A DNA stretch of 64,000 nucleotides from Moritella sp. PE36 (GTDB lineage Bacteria > Pseudomonadota > Gammaproteobacteria > Enterobacterales > Moritellaceae): the NCBI RefSeq assembly GCF_000170855.1, contig NZ_ABCQ01000011.1:1-64000 (forward strand), given 5' to 3'. The notes under the pieces are model-generated. The model saw only the letters and a list, made by a program, of their open reading frames with translations. It searched no databases and was not told the origin of the DNA. Of the stretch, positions 41,032 to 47,695 are shown one piece after another (position 1 is the stretch's first letter; each line of letters starts with the position of its first letter). The translations under genes and the position numbers were made by a program.

Positions 41032-41511
41032 ATGGCTAAGAAAAAACCAAAAAAAAGCGAAAACACCATCGCGAGAAATAAAACGGCTAGTTTCGAATAT
41101 AAAATCGAAGATCGCTTAGAAGCAGGATTAGAACTCCAAGGTTGGGAAGTTAAATCATTACGCGCCGGTAAAGTAAACATTACCGAATGTTATGTGTTTA
41201 TTAAAAACGGTGAAGCATTTATGTCTGGTGCGCAGATCATGCCACTTGATACTGCGTCAACCCATGTTGTTTGTAATCCAACTCGAATTCGTAAGCTGTT
41301 ATTAAACAAGCGTGAATTAGAAGTGCTTGCAAGTAAAGTTGAACGCCAAGGTTATACGATTGTGGCAACATCTATGTACTGGAAACAGGCATGGGTTAAA
41401 GTCAACATTGGTCTTGCCAAAGGTAAAAAAGAGCACGATAAACGTTCAGATGTGAAAGATCGTGAATGGAAAATAGACAAAGAACGTATGATGAAGCACA
41501 AAGTGCGTTAA
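41032..41511 (+). CDS. smpB: tmRNA-binding protein SmpB
   Basis: 159 residues (E. coli 160). The OB-fold core includes [40 protein letters not shown] and the C-terminal basic tail ends [17 protein letters not shown], which enters the ribosome's mRNA channel during trans-translation. ssrA follows 41 nt downstream, so the protein and the RNA it binds are adjacent. Confidence 0.97.
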
Positions 41512-41552
41512 TGTGTTGCAATTCTACACTAATGGCGTAGAATTTTAGTTCT

Positions 41553-41911
41553 GGGGTCGATTTAGGATTCGACGAGATTCACGAAACCCTAGGTGCATGT
41601 CGAGGGGCGGTTGGCCTCGTAAAAAGCCGCACTGTTATAGTTGCAAACGACTCTAACTACTCTCTAGCAGCTTAGGCTAGCTAGCCATCATTTAGAACCC
41701 TGCCTGAGGGTCTCTAATATTGTATGGTCATTAAATATCAGGATCGTGTGGACTCTTCGCTCGTAGAGAAAGCACTAAACACAATCGAGCACGCTTTTGT
41801 TCGGCCTGTCACTCGGCTTAATAAAAAGTTAAATTAATAGAGATGACTAAACATGTAGTACCGCGGATGTAGGTTTTTCGGACGGGGGTTCAACTCCCCC
41901 CGACTCCACCA
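41553..41911 (+). ncRNA. ssrA: Transfer-messenger RNA (tmRNA, SsrA)
   Basis: About 359 nt. The 5' end GGGGTCGATTTAGGATTCGA and 3' end with T-arm GGTTCAACTCC and encoded CCA pair as the tRNA-like domain. The resume codon is GCA at 41643; the tag frame (41643-41675) reads ANDSNYSLAA then TAG, close to E. coli ANDENYALAA and ending in the LAA degron read by ClpXP. It rescues stalled ribosomes together with SmpB. Confidence 0.97.
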
Positions 41912-41947
41912 ATCTGTACTTAGAACGGCATTCTTCCTAAATGTCGC

Positions 41948-41982
41948 AGCCCATTGAATAGTTTGATTCAATGGGCTTTTCT
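41948..41982 (+). terminator. Terminator of ssrA
   Basis: A 12-bp stem (AGCCCATTGAAT and complement, 6-nt loop) followed by TTTTCTTT. Confidence 0.88.
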
Positions 41983-42046
41983 TTATCCAAAATTCAACAA
42001 AAACAGGTAAAAGCTTGTTTTTTAAGCGTAAATCTATGGAGTGGTA

Positions 42047-42241
42047 ATGAATAAAATAGTTTTAATGATAGTTCTTTGTCTGTCACTTCAAGGTTGCCTC
42101 ACGACCCCGAATGACTCAAAAAGTGATGAACCCTCTATAATTGGTCAAAAAACTGAAGAAAAAAAACCAGACAAGAATGGTCTGCTTGCCATTACACAAT
42201 TCATGGCTGTAATGACGCTGCTAAAAACCCAAACAGAGTAA
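42047..42241 (+). CDS. Small lipoprotein, unknown function
   Basis: 64 residues. The signal MNKIVLMIVLCLSLQGC ends in a lipobox (LQGC, lipidated Cys at 17); the mature part is short, polar and Lys/Glu-rich (SDEPSIIGQKTEEKKPDKNG) with a weakly hydrophobic end. GGAG lies 5 nt before ATG 42047. I recognise no family. A second small lipoprotein gene follows 55 nt downstream, so they may be one operon. Both lie in the variable stretch behind ssrA. Confidence 0.65.
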   Translation: MNKIVLMIVLCLSLQGCLTTPNDSKSDEPSIIGQKTEEKKPDKNGLLAITQFMAVMTLLKTQTE

Positions 42242-42296
42242 GTCATTGCGAATACAACAAGTCTTTAATAAATAATAATACCTGTATGGGGTGAGC

Positions 42297-42605
42297 ATGA
42301 GATATATACCATTAATCATATTTATCTGTCTGTTGAATCAAGGTTGTAGCACCAATTACAACCTGCCAATCAACCAACCGACAAGCACTATTCAAGCTTT
42401 AGCACCCGCAGCGATTGAAGATGCCACAGAAGTTCAACCAATTAGCGTTGATGACTTTGACGAGCCACAAATACATACAAGTGATGTGGTTGACGCAAAG
42501 GGCAATAAATTAGAAGAACCAAAAACAGAAGAACTAAGTGGTGAACTGAAAAACATGTCGGACGCCATCGACTTTATGCCGAAGCCGCGTTCTTATTGGA
42601 TGTAG
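42297..42605 (+). CDS. Small lipoprotein, unknown function
   Basis: 102 residues from ATG 42297, just after a GGGGTGAG ribosome-binding sequence. The signal MRYIPLIIFICLLNQGC carries a lipobox with the lipidated Cys at 17. The mature part is acidic and proline-containing (PQIHTSDVVDAKGNKLEEPK) and ends MPKPRSYWM. No family recognised. The N-terminal signal resembles that of the gene upstream, but the mature parts do not. Confidence 0.68.
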   Translation: MRYIPLIIFICLLNQGCSTNYNLPINQPTSTIQALAPAAIEDATEVQPISVDDFDEPQIHTSDVVDAKGNKLEEPKTEELSGELKNMSDAIDFMPKPRSYWM

Positions 42606-42684
42606 GTTATAACATGAAAAATATGACCATTACGTAAATCACGGCCAATTCGCAGTCACGATCCTTCTGTTTTGGAGGGATTAC

Positions 42685-42710
42685 GTCAATTGAACATCCA
42701 TTTCAATAGA
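42685..42710. repeat. 26-nt element identical to 45139-45164 (copy 1)
   Basis: This stretch is identical in both duplicated segments and lies about 30 nt past the stop codon of the 40-residue gene. It contains ATTGAA and TTCAAT arms around a 7-nt centre, so it can fold into a small hairpin. It is better conserved than the coding part of the repeat. Confidence 0.75.
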
Positions 42711-42739
42711 TTTCTAAACTAGTGACTAACGATAATATT

Positions 42740-42862
42740 TTAGCTGTTTTTTATTTTTTTTAACTCACCACAACAATTACATTTATAAATACTGCTATAA
42801 AACAGTTTTTGATACCATGTGCGACTTATTTTAGCCAGTCTCGCGTTTTTACAACATCTCAT
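42740..42862 (-). CDS. 40-residue cysteine-containing small protein, copy 1
   Basis: Reads MRCCKNARLAKISRTWYQKL and continues to FYSSIYKCNCCGELKKIKNS. A second copy at 45192-45314 agrees at 27 of 40 positions, with mainly conservative changes (R/K, L/M, Y/F, S/N), which implies selection on the protein. Conserved Cys3, Cys4, Cys28 and Cys31 (the last two in C-x2-CG) suggest a small zinc-ribbon-like fold; the chain is basic. Its ATG overlaps the stop of the upstream small ORF (ATGA), so translation is probably coupled. No family recognised. Confidence 0.6.
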   Translation of the reverse strand: MRCCKNARLAKISRTWYQKLFYSSIYKCNCCGELKKIKNS

Positions 42863-42978
42863 AATGTTTCCTCTATACCACAGATATCCAATGCACGATG
42901 AACGCTCGACTGAGCATCAATACTAAATTCGAACAGCTCATTCTTTATAAAATTATACAAATCGGCTAAAAGAATCAT
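42859..42978 (-). CDS. 39-residue ORF coupled to the 40-residue gene
   Basis: Reads MILLADLYNFIKNELFEFSI and ends DICGIEETL, then TGA overlapping the next ATG. The frame stays open about 27 codons further upstream, so it may be the tail of a longer, decayed gene or use a non-ATG start; the ribosome-binding site (GTGG) is poor. There is no counterpart upstream of the second copy of the 40-residue gene. Function unknown. Confidence 0.35.
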   Translation of the reverse strand: MILLADLYNFIKNELFEFSIDAQSSVHRALDICGIEETL

Positions 42979-43051
42979 AATATTCAACCACTTAAACCAC
43001 GCATTATACTTTATAGGTAGGCGTAAATATATAAATATATCAACTAGTGCA

Positions 43052-43157
43052 ACATGAAATTAACCATAACTGATTAACGTTTATAAATAGGACAGATTCG
43101 GTCCTGAGCTTAAATGCTAGTAAAAATCGTTATTCGCTAATTTAAACATTTCACAAA
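43052..43157 (-). pseudogene. Remnant of an rbsR 3' end and its terminator
   Basis: This stretch aligns by eye with 45605-45706, which holds the rbsR terminator palindrome and the last rbsR codons. Shared blocks are TTAACCA-AACTGATTAAC, TTAAATGCTA and CTAATT...TTTCAC. It marks the far end of a duplicated segment and breaks off where the integrase fragment begins. Confidence 0.5.
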
Positions 43158-43301
43158 GTGGTAGAACGCACAGTATTTGAATTACCCAAAGGGCAAATGA
43201 GCAATGTGTTACGCCATACGCTTGCGAGCTATTTTATGATGAATGGCGGGAATATTCTGGTGCTACAGGATGCAGTTAAGTTGAATTCGTTGGCAGTAAC
43301 C
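43158..43301 (+). pseudogene. Fragment of a P2-type phage integrase
   Basis: The frame reads ERTVFELPKGQMSNVLRHTL then ASYFMMNGGNILVLQ, the box II region of P2-family tyrosine recombinases, and jumps directly to DAVKLNSLA, which normally lies after the catalytic tyrosine. The GH-S-I-MTM-YAH segment with that tyrosine is missing, the N-terminal two thirds is absent, and the box II His of HxxR is Asn. The remaining piece cannot be active. It lies about 1.2 kb behind ssrA, a frequent phage integration site. Confidence 0.75.
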
Positions 43302-43380
43302 TTCAGCGTACTTATTGGATGTATTACAACAGTACAGATAACAGTGGGATTTACCCTAGTACTTATATTTAACGATCAAA

Positions 43381-43412
43381 AAAATCCCGCTTACTGCAAA
43401 TAAGCGGGATTT
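43381..43412 (-). terminator. Terminator between the integrase fragment and the porin gene
   Basis: A 12-bp stem AAATCCCGCTTA/TAAGCGGGATTT with 7-nt loop; T7 follows on the minus strand, so it can end the porin transcript coming from the right. Confidence 0.8.
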
Positions 43413-43545
43413 ATATAAAGGATATATTACTTTATTCTACGGTAAAGACTAAGAAACCGACAGAAGTAGCGAACGCGAACTCTTGGTCACGCGCTGCTCA
43501 GTAGTAGATCGATTTCAATGAATCATTGCATTGAATGAGTCAGAA

Positions 43546-44493
43546 TTAGAAAGAGTAACGCGCACCGACGATGAATTCATCTGCGTTGCTACTATTATAG
43601 TCAGCACCAGCAGTAGTATCGTTGTTAAGTGCAACTTTATAACCAGCATACGCTGCGATGTCACCAATATAACGACCATATTCAAATGCAACAAAGTTAA
43701 CATCGCCAACGCTTGGCTCATCAGCACTTAAGTAGTTATATGAAACACTTACTGTATTTTCACCAAATCCATAAGATGCGAATGCATCAACGGCATCAAA
43801 GTCAGCATCAGCTAAAGTACCTTTTTGTACTAGGCCTGAAACTAAAATACCACCGTTAGTATAACGTGCACCGATCATGTATACATCTGATGATTCAGAT
43901 GCGCCCACAGCAGTTTCAGTTGCGGCATAACCTGCACTTAATTCAACACTTGGAAGCAATTTATAAGCAACCATCAGGCCGCCGCCATTTTCAGTCTCTT
44001 TTAGATTAACTGAAGCATTAAATGTTAAATCGCCTTTTATCACACTATAAAGGATCGTATCTTCTGCTCTGTCACCACTCGCAGTAATGCCTTTGTTTGT
44101 CTCGCCGCTATAAACTTCAGCCACATCAGTGAAGTTAGTTAGATATGTAACAGCATTATCTTGAGTACCGTATGTTAATGTACCGTAAGCAGTCTCAACA
44201 CCAACGTATCCGTAACGAATATTATTTTTAACTGTCGTATCCGATGAAGAGTCTTCTTGTGTTAATTCATACTCGAATTTACCAACAGCTGTTAAAGCAT
44301 CATTAATTTCATGCTTACCTTGGCCATTTAAACGAACACGCGATTTATCATTAAAATCACTATCAGTAAGCGCAGCCCTTGCTTCAATACGTCCACCAAA
44401 AGAAAAATCGTCAGTGTTGATGTTTTCAGCAAGAACAGGCATAGATACGAGTGTAGCCAGTGTAAGAGATAATGCTTTATTTATTTTGTTCAT
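43546..44493 (-). CDS. Outer-membrane general porin
   Basis: 315 residues from ATG 44493, which has GGAA about 7 nt upstream; an ATG four codons earlier lacks one. The signal peptide ends SMPVLA (residue about 22). The mature chain has the trimeric-porin pattern: SFGGRIEARA, GKFEYELTQED, a YGYVGVETAYGTLTYGTQDN stretch typical of loop L2-L3 entry, alternating beta strands and a terminal Phe (VGARYSF), the BAM recognition signal. It lets small hydrophilic solutes through the outer membrane. Its place between repeat copies suggests an acquired or moved gene. Confidence 0.85.
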   Translation of the reverse strand: MNKINKALSLTLATLVSMPVLAENINTDDFSFGGRIEARAALTDSDFNDKSRVRLNGQGKHEINDALTAVGKFEYELTQEDSSSDTTVKNNIRYGYVGVETAYGTLTYGTQDNAVTYLTNFTDVAEVYSGETNKGITASGDRAEDTILYSVIKGDLTFNASVNLKETENGGGLMVAYKLLPSVELSAGYAATETAVGASESSDVYMIGARYTNGGILVSGLVQKGTLADADFDAVDAFASYGFGENTVSVSYNYLSADEPSVGDVNFVAFEYGRYIGDIAAYAGYKVALNNDTTAGADYNSSNADEFIVGARYSF

Positions 44494-44649
44494 GAACATT
44501 TCCATTTTTAGTGAAGCTGATAGCTAAATAATCTAAATCGCAGATTAAACCAAGATTTACGCTATATGTTATTATAAATATTAATAAAATATATAATAAC
44601 AGTACATTCTCTTTACTCTAATTTACTTTGATTACAGCCAGTGTCTTAA

Positions 44650-44952
44650 TTAATGCTGATAAGCTCGCCCTAACTGCTTTGCAACAATGGCTATTAACTT
44701 CCCGCGGCTAAATTTGAACTGCACATCGAATTCACCACCAACAGACGCATGCAAAATATAGTGATTACGTCCAATTCGTTTCGATGATTTCTCTTTATTG
44801 ATCATTATCATCACCTCTGAATGTTGCATTTCAATACCACTAATCAATAACCCGCCACCACTAAGACGAAAGAAGTCCTCGGCTTTGGCGTAAGATAATG
44901 ATGAAAAAGACTGTAATGCGATAAACAATAATCCGATATATTTTGATTGCAT
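44650..44952 (-). CDS. Secreted hypothetical protein
   Basis: 100 residues. Residues 1-22 (MQSKYIGLLFIALQSFSSLSYA) form a Sec signal peptide. The mature 78 residues hold SGGGLLISGIEMQHSEVMIM and a basic second half (KSSKRIGRNHYILHASVGGE). No motif recognised and no cysteine in the mature part. It sits between a porin and the second copy of the 40-residue gene, all on the minus strand. Product likely periplasmic. Confidence 0.6.
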   Translation of the reverse strand: MQSKYIGLLFIALQSFSSLSYAKAEDFFRLSGGGLLISGIEMQHSEVMIMINKEKSSKRIGRNHYILHASVGGEFDVQFKFSRGKLIAIVAKQLGRAYQH

Positions 44953-45138
44953 AAACTAATCCACAAGTTAATTATATTAAATCAATACATTATCATGTAG
45001 AAGCACAGGAGATTAATAAGTATTTCATATGAGCAACGTGTCTTGGACTCATTATGAGTAAGTTAACTTGGAAGAATAAATAAGTAGGCTTAATGCATAA
45101 AATGCACTTAAAAATAATGAAGGAGATAATGGGATTTG

Positions 45139-45164
45139 GTCAATTGAACATCCATTTCAATAGA
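45139..45164. repeat. 26-nt element identical to 42685-42710 (copy 2)
   Basis: Lies about 30 nt past the stop of the second 40-residue gene, the same position as in copy 1. Confidence 0.75.
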
Positions 45165-45191
45165 CCCTCTAAAATAATCAATAACAATATT

Positions 45192-45314
45192 TTAGCTATG
45201 TTTTATTTTTTTAAACTTGCCGCAGCTATTACATTTATAACTACTGCTATAAAACCATTTTTGAAACCATGTGCGATTTATTTTTATCATCTTTCCCGTT
45301 TTACAACATCTCAT
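45192..45314 (-). CDS. 40-residue cysteine-containing small protein, copy 2
   Basis: Reads MRCCKTGKMIKINRTWFQKW and continues to FYSSSYKCNSCGKFKKIKHS. Cys3, Cys4, Cys28 and Cys31 are shared with copy 1, whereas the extra Cys30 of copy 1 is Ser here. GAGG lies 6 nt before the ATG, a better ribosome-binding site than in copy 1, and no coupled ORF precedes it. About 9 Lys and 2 Arg make it strongly basic, so nucleic-acid binding is conceivable. It is encoded downstream of rbsR, past a likely terminator. Confidence 0.6.
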   Translation of the reverse strand: MRCCKTGKMIKINRTWFQKWFYSSSYKCNSCGKFKKIKHS

Positions 45315-45604
45315 ACATGACCTCATACTATTTAAATGTAGACACCGCCTTTAATGCGGTAATGACATCAATATACCAAATAGCATTGAACACATTTTTT
45401 CGTAAGCTTACGTGAGATATGTCGCAATGTTACATTTCGTTGCAAATTGATGATGCATCTTACCGTCTGCAAATGTGGAGCAATATATCGAATTTTAAAA
45501 ATAATTCTTAAACGATATATTTTTTTAAATTAAGTGATGAATAGTTGTATTTTAAAGCACAATAAACCGAGGTGTCATTAAATACAGTGGTTTTGACTAG
45601 GGTG
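45315..45604. other. Non-coding stretch between rbsR and the second 40-residue gene
   Basis: About 290 AT-rich nt without a supported ORF. ACCGCCTTTAATGCGGT (45345-45361) is a short imperfect palindrome. It should hold the promoter of the 40-residue gene (minus strand). Confidence 0.5.
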
Positions 45605-45636
45605 TGAAAAAGTTAACCAGAACTGATTAACTTTTA
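45604..45636 (-). terminator. Probable terminator of the rbs operon
   Basis: A near-perfect 12-bp AT-rich stem (AAAGTTAATCAG with CTGGTTAACTTT on the minus strand, one G-T pair) with a 2-nt centre, then TTTTTCA. It begins about 53 nt past the rbsR stop. A decayed copy lies at 43055-43080. Confidence 0.6.
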
Positions 45637-45688
45637 TAATGAGGAGTGGACGATATTAAATGCTACGATAAAAAATAGTCGCTATCTA

Positions 45689-46693
45689 CTAATTCAATGC
45701 TTTCACGCTATCGCGCTCCACTAAGGTCGGCTCTAATTCGATGATCTGGTTGCTTTCAGTCTTCGAGTTAATTTGTTCAAGTAACATGTCTACCGCCTTT
45801 TTGCCTAAACGGTGCTTAGGCTGGTGAATAGTGGTTAATGACGGGGTAATATATTTTGCCAATTTAATGTCATCATAACCGATAATAGACAGGTCTTCTG
45901 GTACTGAGATACCCTTTTTACTGGCGCTGTTGATCACGCTCATTGCCATCATGTCGTTACAGACAAATAAGGCGGATGGCAATGGGCCGTTAGCAACCAT
46001 TTCAGCAAAGGCTTTTTCGCCACCTTCGCATTCAAAGTTACCCGCGGTCACCCACTTCGGATTAATATCTAAGCCCGCTTCTTCCATTGCTTGGGTAAAA
46101 CCAGCAAAACGTTGTTGTGCGGTTAGCTTATCTAATGCACCGGTAATACAACCAATCTCGGTATGCCCTTTCGCAATTAAATGCTGTGTTGCCATATAAC
46201 CACCGCGATGAGAATTATCTTTGATCTTATCACAAGGAAAATTGGTTGGGCCCCAATCCATCACCACTGTTGGTACCGGTTTGTGACGTTCAAATAGATT
46301 AAAGCCTTGGCTTTCAACTTCACTGCACATCAACATTAAGCCATCAACACGCTTTTGTAATAAGATATCAAGATTAGCATGCATACGGGCGACATCACCT
46401 TCGGTATTACATAGAATAAGGTTATAACCATGTTCATAACAACGACGTTCAACGCCTTTTAATACTTCAGCAAAAAACGGATTGGTTGAGGTTGTTACTA
46501 GCATACCAAAGGTTTTGGTACTCTGGACTTTAAGGCTACGTGCTAATGCCGACGGTGCGTAACGTAACTCGTCAACAGCCGCTTTTACGCGCGCAGACAC
46601 ATCGTCACTCACATAACGAGTTTTGTTTAATACATGACTCACCGTTGACGTTGATACACCGGCATGTTTTGCTACGTCTTTAATTGTTGCCAT
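45689..46693 (-). CDS. rbsR: Ribose operon repressor RbsR (LacI family)
   Basis: 334 residues (E. coli 330). The N-terminal LacI helix-turn-helix reads MATIKDVAKHAGVSTSTVSH with VLNKTRYVS; the periplasmic-binding-like effector domain follows (KTFGMLVTTSTNPFFAEVLKGVERRCYEHGYNLI is typical). Ribose binding should release it from the operator seen ahead of rbsD. It is the last gene of rbsDACBKR, as in E. coli. Confidence 0.93.
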   Translation of the reverse strand: MATIKDVAKHAGVSTSTVSHVLNKTRYVSDDVSARVKAAVDELRYAPSALARSLKVQSTKTFGMLVTTSTNPFFAEVLKGVERRCYEHGYNLILCNTEGDVARMHANLDILLQKRVDGLMLMCSEVESQGFNLFERHKPVPTVVMDWGPTNFPCDKIKDNSHRGGYMATQHLIAKGHTEIGCITGALDKLTAQQRFAGFTQAMEEAGLDINPKWVTAGNFECEGGEKAFAEMVANGPLPSALFVCNDMMAMSVINSASKKGISVPEDLSIIGYDDIKLAKYITPSLTTIHQPKHRLGKKAVDMLLEQINSKTESNQIIELEPTLVERDSVKALN

Positions 46694-46774
46694 CAGCTAA
46701 TCTTGTCCATCATCGTTTATTGTGAAAATAAGGCAGTGATTATATAAAGAGCTCTCCACTGCCTGTTGGCCGCG

Positions 46775-47695
46775 TTAACCTTGTAACGCTAAAAATTCAT
46801 CCACTTCCGCTTTCGTTGGAATCGATGTTTGTGCACCGACACGTGTTACTGAAATGGCCGCGGCAGCATGGGCAAAACGGATAGCATCATCGAGTACTAA
46901 TCCTGCTTGTAACCCTGCGAGTAAACCACCATTGAAGGTATCACCTGCAGCTGTCGTATCAACCGCGTCAACACGGAAACCTTTTACTTGCTTACCAGTG
47001 CCAGCCTGGCTGATCCATACGCCTTGGCTACCTAACGTGATCATCACCTCACTAATACCTTTAGCATGTAATGCATTAGCCGCTACTTGCGCTGACGCCA
47101 TGTCAGTCACTTTAATGCCCGTTAATAATTCCGCTTCGGTTTCATTGGGGGTGATCAAATCAACAACAGCTAATAGTTCATCACTTAATGGCTGTGCAGG
47201 CGCTGGATTTAATACCACACGCGTACCCGCTTGATTCGCTATTTTAGCCGCTTGCGTAATCGTTGTAATCGGCGTTTCTAATTGCATTAACAGTGTATCA
47301 GCTTGTTCAATTAACTTGCTATGTGGTGCAAGGCGTTCAGGCGTTAAGCAGGCATTGGCTTCTGCCGAAATACAAATGCTGTTTTCACCGGTTGCCGCTA
47401 CTTGGATCATCGCGATACCTGTTGGAGTATCTTGTTCCACCATCACGGCTTGGGTATTGATACCATCAAGATCAAACTCGGTGATCATACTAGCACCAAA
47501 ACTGTCATCACCCACACAGGCAATAAACGCAATATCAGCACCTAAACGTGCAGCGGCAACGGCTTGATTAGCCCCTTTACCGCCTGGGATCACAGCATAA
47601 CTATGCCCGAGTAAAGTTTCGCCTGGACGCGGAAAAGAAGCAACTTGTAAAACATGATCAGCGTTAACGCTACCTAACACAACTAATTTATTCAT
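46775..47695 (-). CDS. rbsK: Ribokinase
   Basis: 306 residues (E. coli 309), PfkB family. Substrate-binding N-terminus VVLGSVNADHVLQVASFPRPGETLLG, the GGKGANQAVAAARLGA motif and the catalytic anion-hole motif VDTTAAGDTFNGGLLAGL with Asp as base. It phosphorylates D-ribose at O5 to ribose-5-P, feeding the pentose phosphate pathway and nucleotide synthesis. It lies between rbsB and rbsR. Confidence 0.95.
   Translation of the reverse strand: MNKLVVLGSVNADHVLQVASFPRPGETLLGHSYAVIPGGKGANQAVAAARLGADIAFIACVGDDSFGASMITEFDLDGINTQAVMVEQDTPTGIAMIQVAATGENSICISAEANACLTPERLAPHSKLIEQADTLLMQLETPITTITQAAKIANQAGTRVVLNPAPAQPLSDELLAVVDLITPNETEAELLTGIKVTDMASAQVAANALHAKGISEVMITLGSQGVWISQAGTGKQVKGFRVDAVDTTAAGDTFNGGLLAGLQAGLVLDDAIRFAHAAAAISVTRVGAQTSIPTKAEVDEFLALQG

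Follow-up and report, generated by a model that had tools for sequence, protein, structure and literature searches.

Two short open reading frames on the minus strand of a 64,000-nucleotide (nt) stretch of the Moritella sp. PE36 genome (contig NZ_ABCQ01000011.1, positions 1 to 64,000, referred to here as the window) belong to a family with a conserved frame, purifying selection, four conserved ligand residues, conserved genomic sites, multiple copies and phage homologues. On balance, both frames are probably real genes, each encoding a stand-alone, one-domain zinc-ribbon microprotein of ~40 residues that is basic and would act as a nucleic-acid-binding small regulator. The components of this reading differ in strength: the ribbon is well supported, nucleic-acid binding by the microprotein is probable, and the metal, the target and the function are put forward as predictions from sequence.

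Coding status, distribution and selection

The original prediction had proposed the two 40-codon frames from the letters of the window, and both are open from ATG to stop (Table 1). Recalculation returned the same agreement between their products (27 of 40 residues, 68%), with Cys3, Cys4, Cys28 and Cys31 common to both copies, and 93 of the first 114 nt of the DNA are identical. The likeness comprises the gene and ~60 nt downstream, with upstream agreement in short patches only. The GAGG that had been reported ahead of the copy 2 start is present, and the description of the product as small and basic agrees with net charges (K+R minus D+E) of +11 and +9 in the two window copies. The longest ATG frame at copy 2 has 44 codons (45192-45326) and starts 12 nt earlier; the 40-codon start is favoured because Met1 of that form is invariant in the family alignment.

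Members of the family occur throughout Moritella. A search with copy 2 matched 13 of 59 genomes, namely all 11 Moritella genomes, each with 1-5 matches, and two others (G037 and G053) whose matches were dismissed after their translations were read. The Moritella sp. PE36 genome itself holds five copies, one of which (on C114) is truncated where the contig stops; a further match (L006) was dismissed, with an expectation value (E) of 0.35 and a stop inside the frame. An alignment of 21 sequences (A1) was drawn from 28 genus matches, with seven omitted as near-duplicate, cut or decayed, and Met1, Cys3, Cys4, Arg14, Tyr22, Cys28 and Cys31 are invariant in it. Searched with A1, 2 of 369 genomes of the class matched (the own genome and a weak, stop-bearing match that was dismissed), as did 19 of 394 genomes of the order, 11 of them from Moritella and 8 from one other genus. 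With a broader alignment (A3), matches came from two of the 13 genera in the family that includes Photobacterium, in 116 of 247 genomes and with at most seven matches per genome; one of the two genera is Photobacterium and the other is probably Vibrio. Across the phylum, A3 matched 11 of 349 genomes: the own genome, four of the Photobacterium-containing family and six of a distant family (f222). Four loci (L017, L018, L032 and L084) were judged non-members on reading their translations. A plasmid search with the CxH form described below gave no match, and one with the CxC form gave a single weak candidate match in Vibrio campbellii (E 0.06). As only 3 and 2 features in all are annotated on the megabase replicons of the Photobacterium and Vibrio campbellii records, respectively, these are uninformative on annotation.

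By themselves, the window copies are weak evidence for coding. They differ at 21 of 114 nt, with 7 differences synonymous and 14 of other kinds, which gives a ratio of nonsynonymous to synonymous rates (dN/dS) of ~0.36; among 2000 random placements of the 21 differences, 67 retained as many residues and 1416 created a stop, a marginal excess over chance. The coding status is settled by the family-wide comparison instead, which is decisive and in which the frame is clearly conserved more than chance would allow. In a set of 24 sequences, from which six rows were dropped (L003, L005, L017, L018, L025 and L029), the proportion of nonsynonymous differences was below that of synonymous differences (pN < pS) in 275 of 276 pairs, and variation peaks at third codon positions. 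A loose ribosome-binding motif precedes 21 of 27 genus copies (a count made with no shuffle control), and the microprotein genes are predicted to be translated.

The same pattern holds at conserved genomic sites, whose neighbouring genes carry presumed names based on their sequences (rbsR-like, FabA-like, tatC, tatD, LysR-type and YgjP-like). The rbsR-like gene has a copy on its downstream side, in the same orientation, in 8 of the 11 genus genomes (L001, L007, L008, L009, L013, L015, L024 and L027). At this site dN/dS was 0.06-0.14 in the 5 unsaturated pairs among 10 (five sequences), and three further sequences gave 0.07, 0.09 and 0.65, the last of which rests on four changes. In the Photobacterium-containing family, among the loci retrieved, the CxH form sits in the interval from tatC to tatD in 11 genomes; pN was below pS in 45 of 45 pairs there and the median dN/dS was 0.12 (18 unsaturated pairs), for a set of 10 of the 11 genomes with one identical peptide omitted. 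The CxC form lies by the LysR-type gene in 15 genomes, with the YgjP-like gene on the opposite side in 12 and a close pair of members in 5, and nine chosen sequences from this site gave pN < pS in 36 of 36 pairs and a median dN/dS of 0.10 (15 unsaturated pairs). The ratio near 1 that the original prediction had named as counter-evidence was thus not seen, with values of ~0.1 at all three conserved sites, and its proposal of purifying selection is borne out across species by both measures.

Three groups of Vibrio phages also carry members, placed within gene arrays. In 1.235.O and 1.253.O no annotated gene matches the member, and the 1.253.O frame occupies a gap, overlapping the preceding gene by 8 nt. 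Marilyn, Fayden, Baybae and Vaitephage have a member that lies in an annotation gap in both of the records opened. The members of the third group occur in D81, D82, D93 and D71; in D81, the record of this group that was opened, the member is annotated as a hypothetical protein and adjoins the terminase large subunit. Two of the three phage groups leave the member unannotated. Two more viral scans found no relative.

Ligand pattern and relation to known zinc ribbons

In 68 of 68 distinct member peptides, a set that leaves out the f222 ribbons, L005, L018, L084 and L106, potential ligands form a pair in the first half and a CxxC in the second. The first pair is CC in 33 peptides, CxC in 21 and CxH in 14, and a first knuckle of the CxxC(G) form occurs in none of the 68. 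The five one-domain f222 ribbons (L153-L157) share R-x-H-R and Y-x-C-x2-C with the microprotein but have a full CPxC first knuckle where the microprotein has CC, CxC or CxH. In a profile comparison, the family (67 peptides) matched these CPxCG ribbons with a probability of 96.8 over 37 columns, and the controls stayed lower (maximum 5.2 with all columns shuffled and 42.3 with the N-terminal half shuffled, 30 shuffles each). Because the profile alignment survives these controls, Cys3-Cys4 can be placed at the position of CPxC, and it looks like a contracted first knuckle. The original prediction had considered the protein possibly zinc-binding, and zinc binding by the four ligands is likely, since they are kept in every member peptide and align with the CPxCG ribbons. 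Net charge ranges from +4 to +12, with a median of +8 (72 peptides, outgroup ribbons included).

Combined, these features suggest a mechanism in which Cys3, Cys4, Cys28 and Cys31 would hold one zinc ion, the first pair (CC, or CxC/CxH in relatives) serving as a contracted version of the CPxCG knuckle that ordinary ribbons have. Contact with RNA or DNA would be made by a positive face composed of the middle segment together with the many lysines and arginines, and the microprotein may act in this way as a small regulator of expression. Small proteins of Haloferax volcanii and of the F plasmid, both described below, offer analogies.

It should be noted that several observations weigh against this interpretation. 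The cysteines are part of the profile by which the members were found, so that the conservation of the ligands is partly a product of how they were selected, and the CPxCG ribbons number five and were found with the family's own profile, which makes the comparison not independent. An AlphaFold2 model of copy 2 (predicted local distance difference test 69.4, predicted template modelling score 0.38) has strands at residues 9-11, 22-28 and 34-38 and a helix at 16-21, and it gives residues 3-6, with the first cysteine pair, a helical conformation in place of a knuckle; the model is based on four sequences and is of modest confidence. Some close pairs have higher dN/dS values of 0.23-0.65, with few changes (0.23-0.55 for those outside the rbsR site, one being undefined). 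Copy 1 has decayed in one genus genome (G003; L025, near 1501-1596), where the remnant at the copy 1 site retains the second half only and intact copies lie elsewhere; copy 1 is therefore dispensable in that genome. Finally, basic charge by itself is no proof of nucleic-acid binding, and zinc binding, nucleic-acid binding and expression are predictions.

The original prediction knew of no family that fits, and the library searches agree: the window proteins found nothing better than E 0.016 in Pfam, NCBIfam and PHROGs, and all matches of relatives shown with scores are below the curated cut-offs. On sequence comparison, no family in the libraries searched covers the microprotein, and the strongest match spans only part of it. 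For the CPxCG outgroup the closest families are the IS1595 zinc ribbon (best E 0.00017) and Lar (PF14354; best E 0.00071), each matched by 4 of the 5 members. Membership in Lar was rejected, as the best outgroup member reached 20.2 bits against a cut-off of 28.6 and none of 22 family members matched at E <=0.1. In a search of solved structures, the best hits were low-E matches of 12-18 positions to the second knuckle of C2H2 zinc fingers, which are taken as compositional, and the remainder were weak. The zinc finger micro-proteins HVO_2753 and HVO_0758 of Haloferax volcanii are likewise very small, but they are archaeal and have two C(P)XCG motifs, the first of which is absent in all 68 members. 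No significant match to HVO-type micro-proteins was found; PF07754 was matched by one outgroup member at E 0.011. HVO_0758 has been shown to bind zinc via four cysteines and to have a positively charged helix, and in Haloferax volcanii a mutant in which a small zinc protein is deleted swarms less well (PMC10716476). Among the papers listed by literature searches, none dealt with the microprotein family, as judged by titles and the opening lines of abstracts.

Alternative readings

A possible, though rather improbable, alternative is that the ribbon is real and serves as a protein-binding adaptor, docking on RNA polymerase or the ribosome and not on nucleic acid. TraR docks on RNA polymerase, and the C4 type of DksA/TraR has the spacing C-x2-C-x17-C-x2-C. 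The microprotein does not fit this spacing, with 23 residues between its pairs and no first CxxC (no search was aimed at TraR or DksA), and its very high charge also speaks against an adaptor. In favour are the existence of phage copies and two weak likenesses, to ribosomal protein L32 (E 0.061) and, at the second knuckle only, to Rpo12/P, a subunit of archaeal RNA polymerase (E 0.017). Plasmids and phages are also known to reprogram host transcription through small proteins, one of which is encoded by the F plasmid and has phage homologues (PMC9239242). An unlikely explanation is that the CC and CxxC pairs hold iron in a mononuclear site of the desulforedoxin type, making the protein a redox or iron sensor. 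Desulforedoxin indeed uses a CxxC and an adjacent CC pair, and the YKCxxCG segment is held in common: among 22 members compared with Pfam, the best match was PF06397 (desulfoferrodoxin N-terminal; E 0.00042), matched by 5 of the 22, and a desulforedoxin chain appeared at E 0.026 in the solved-structure search. The scores in four members are 12.6-15.4 bits against a cut-off of 23, and the best member is listed without a score. However, where its extent is shown, the match covers the CxxC segment only, over 11-14 residues. Further, desulforedoxin has CxxC followed by CC, and in the microprotein CC precedes CxxC, a reversed order on which membership was rejected. Relatives also have CxC or CxH in place of CC, and the outgroup has CPxC.

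It is highly improbable that the genes are fragments or stand-alone copies of the zinc ribbon of the SprT protease. The CxC relatives resemble that ribbon (PF17283) in C-x-C and Y-x-C-x2-C, 3 of the 22 members match it (best E 0.016), and one relative aligns over its full length to NF003421 (model residues 130-164, E 0.038). Conversely, the SprT ribbon is part of a protease, and PF17283 matches none of the own-genome copies at E <=10. A profile of SprT, built from the 18 of 29 SprT loci that fit the pattern (own one included), gave a probability of 59.9 over 23 columns, and 30 shuffles of its N-terminal half gave a mean of 57.3 and a maximum of 82.0; because this shuffling leaves the probability largely unchanged, only the second knuckle is in common. 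Membership was rejected with scores below the PF17283 cut-off and no homology beyond that knuckle. Scarcely credible is a dispersed DNA repeat with an incidental frame, which would account for the several copies in many genomes and for the sequence that follows the gene in both window copies. A dN/dS of ~0.1, the greatest variation at third codon positions and the placement of copies at conserved sites all argue against such a repeat, and no terminal inverted repeats or target duplications were seen by eye.

Returning to the ribbon microprotein as a nucleic-acid-binding regulator, this analysis adds a conserved, often multi-copy gene family that is absent from the family libraries searched. 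The CC, CxC, CxH and CPxC forms in relatives make up a natural series on the minimal size of a zinc ribbon, and the phage copies make a role in phage-host contact testable. As a tentative extension, which we regard as improbable, the members could form an uncatalogued contracted-knuckle family of marine bacteria and phages that multiplies in genomes, regulates through nucleic acid or the transcription machinery, and has been adopted by phages to steer the host.

Genomic sites, signals and neighbouring features

Neighbours vary from site to site, and the gene is therefore not tied to one operon; for the same reason, independent transcription is probable for most chromosomal copies. Beyond the eight genomes with a copy at the rbsR site, a ninth (G007) has the copy 1 orthologue with the same rbsR-like gene inside the locus (L091). 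Copy 1 has an orthologue in one other genus genome (L010) and, in another, the remnant described above. Two of the eight genomes (G002 and G004) have an additional copy beside a FabA-like gene, and the C114 copy of the own genome has ~1,090 nt of upstream DNA, 95% identical, in common with G005. At three loci of the LysR site (L065, L067 and L068) two microprotein genes lie close together in the interval from the LysR-type gene to the YgjP-like metallopeptidase gene. At one locus in G001 (L077, 543-962) a frame of 139 residues has a family member, in frame, as its C-terminal part, which may reflect a fusion or an upstream gene that continues into the microprotein.

Table 1. Positions of the two microprotein genes and of associated features in the window
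Feature	Positions	Strand	Remarks
Copy 2, 40-codon microprotein gene	45192..45314	minus	ATG at 45314, stop at 45192-45194
Copy 1, 40-codon paralogue	42740..42862	minus	ATG to stop, open throughout
GAGG, Shine-Dalgarno-like, copy 2	45321..45324	minus	6 nt before ATG
GAGGAA, Shine-Dalgarno-like, copy 1	42868..42873	minus	precedes copy 1 ATG
Putative leader hairpin or operator-like dyad upstream of copy 2, ACCGC ... GCGGT	45344..45360	minus	some compensatory changes in orthologues
Hairpin after copy 2, GGTC-T-ATTGAA ... TTCAAT-T-GACC	45138..45166	minus	folding equalled by 20 of 200 shuffles
Matching sequence after copy 1, part of duplicated unit	42685..42710	minus	99 of 200 shuffles fold as well; stem unsupported
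rbsR-like LacI-family gene, syntenic anchor upstream of copy 2	45689..46693	minus	presumed name, based on its sequence

Of 200 shuffles, 1 equals the folding of the copy 2 leader and 131 equal that of the copy 1 leader; the comparison of five rbsR-site sequences makes a leader hairpin upstream of copy 2 suggestive. Downstream of the stop in two orthologous loci (L007 and L008), a stem with a T run behind it resembles an intrinsic terminator by eye, and copy 2 keeps the stem without the T run. No terminator-like site was called in the window. Promoter-like sites, counted on both strands, numbered 7 in the copy 2 region against a shuffle mean of 4.5 (standard deviation 1.6) and 1 in the copy 1 region against a mean of 3.0.

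A transfer-messenger RNA (tmRNA) gene lies at 41553-41911 of the window and was the sole feature above its gathering score in an Rfam search of 41500-47000; the frame just upstream of it (41032-41511) is SmpB-like, a presumed name based on its sequence. Additionally, a dispersed repeat of ~90 nt matches the own genome at nine places, one of them L071, 5204-5307, and sits after a microprotein gene at three loci (L004, L016 and L028).

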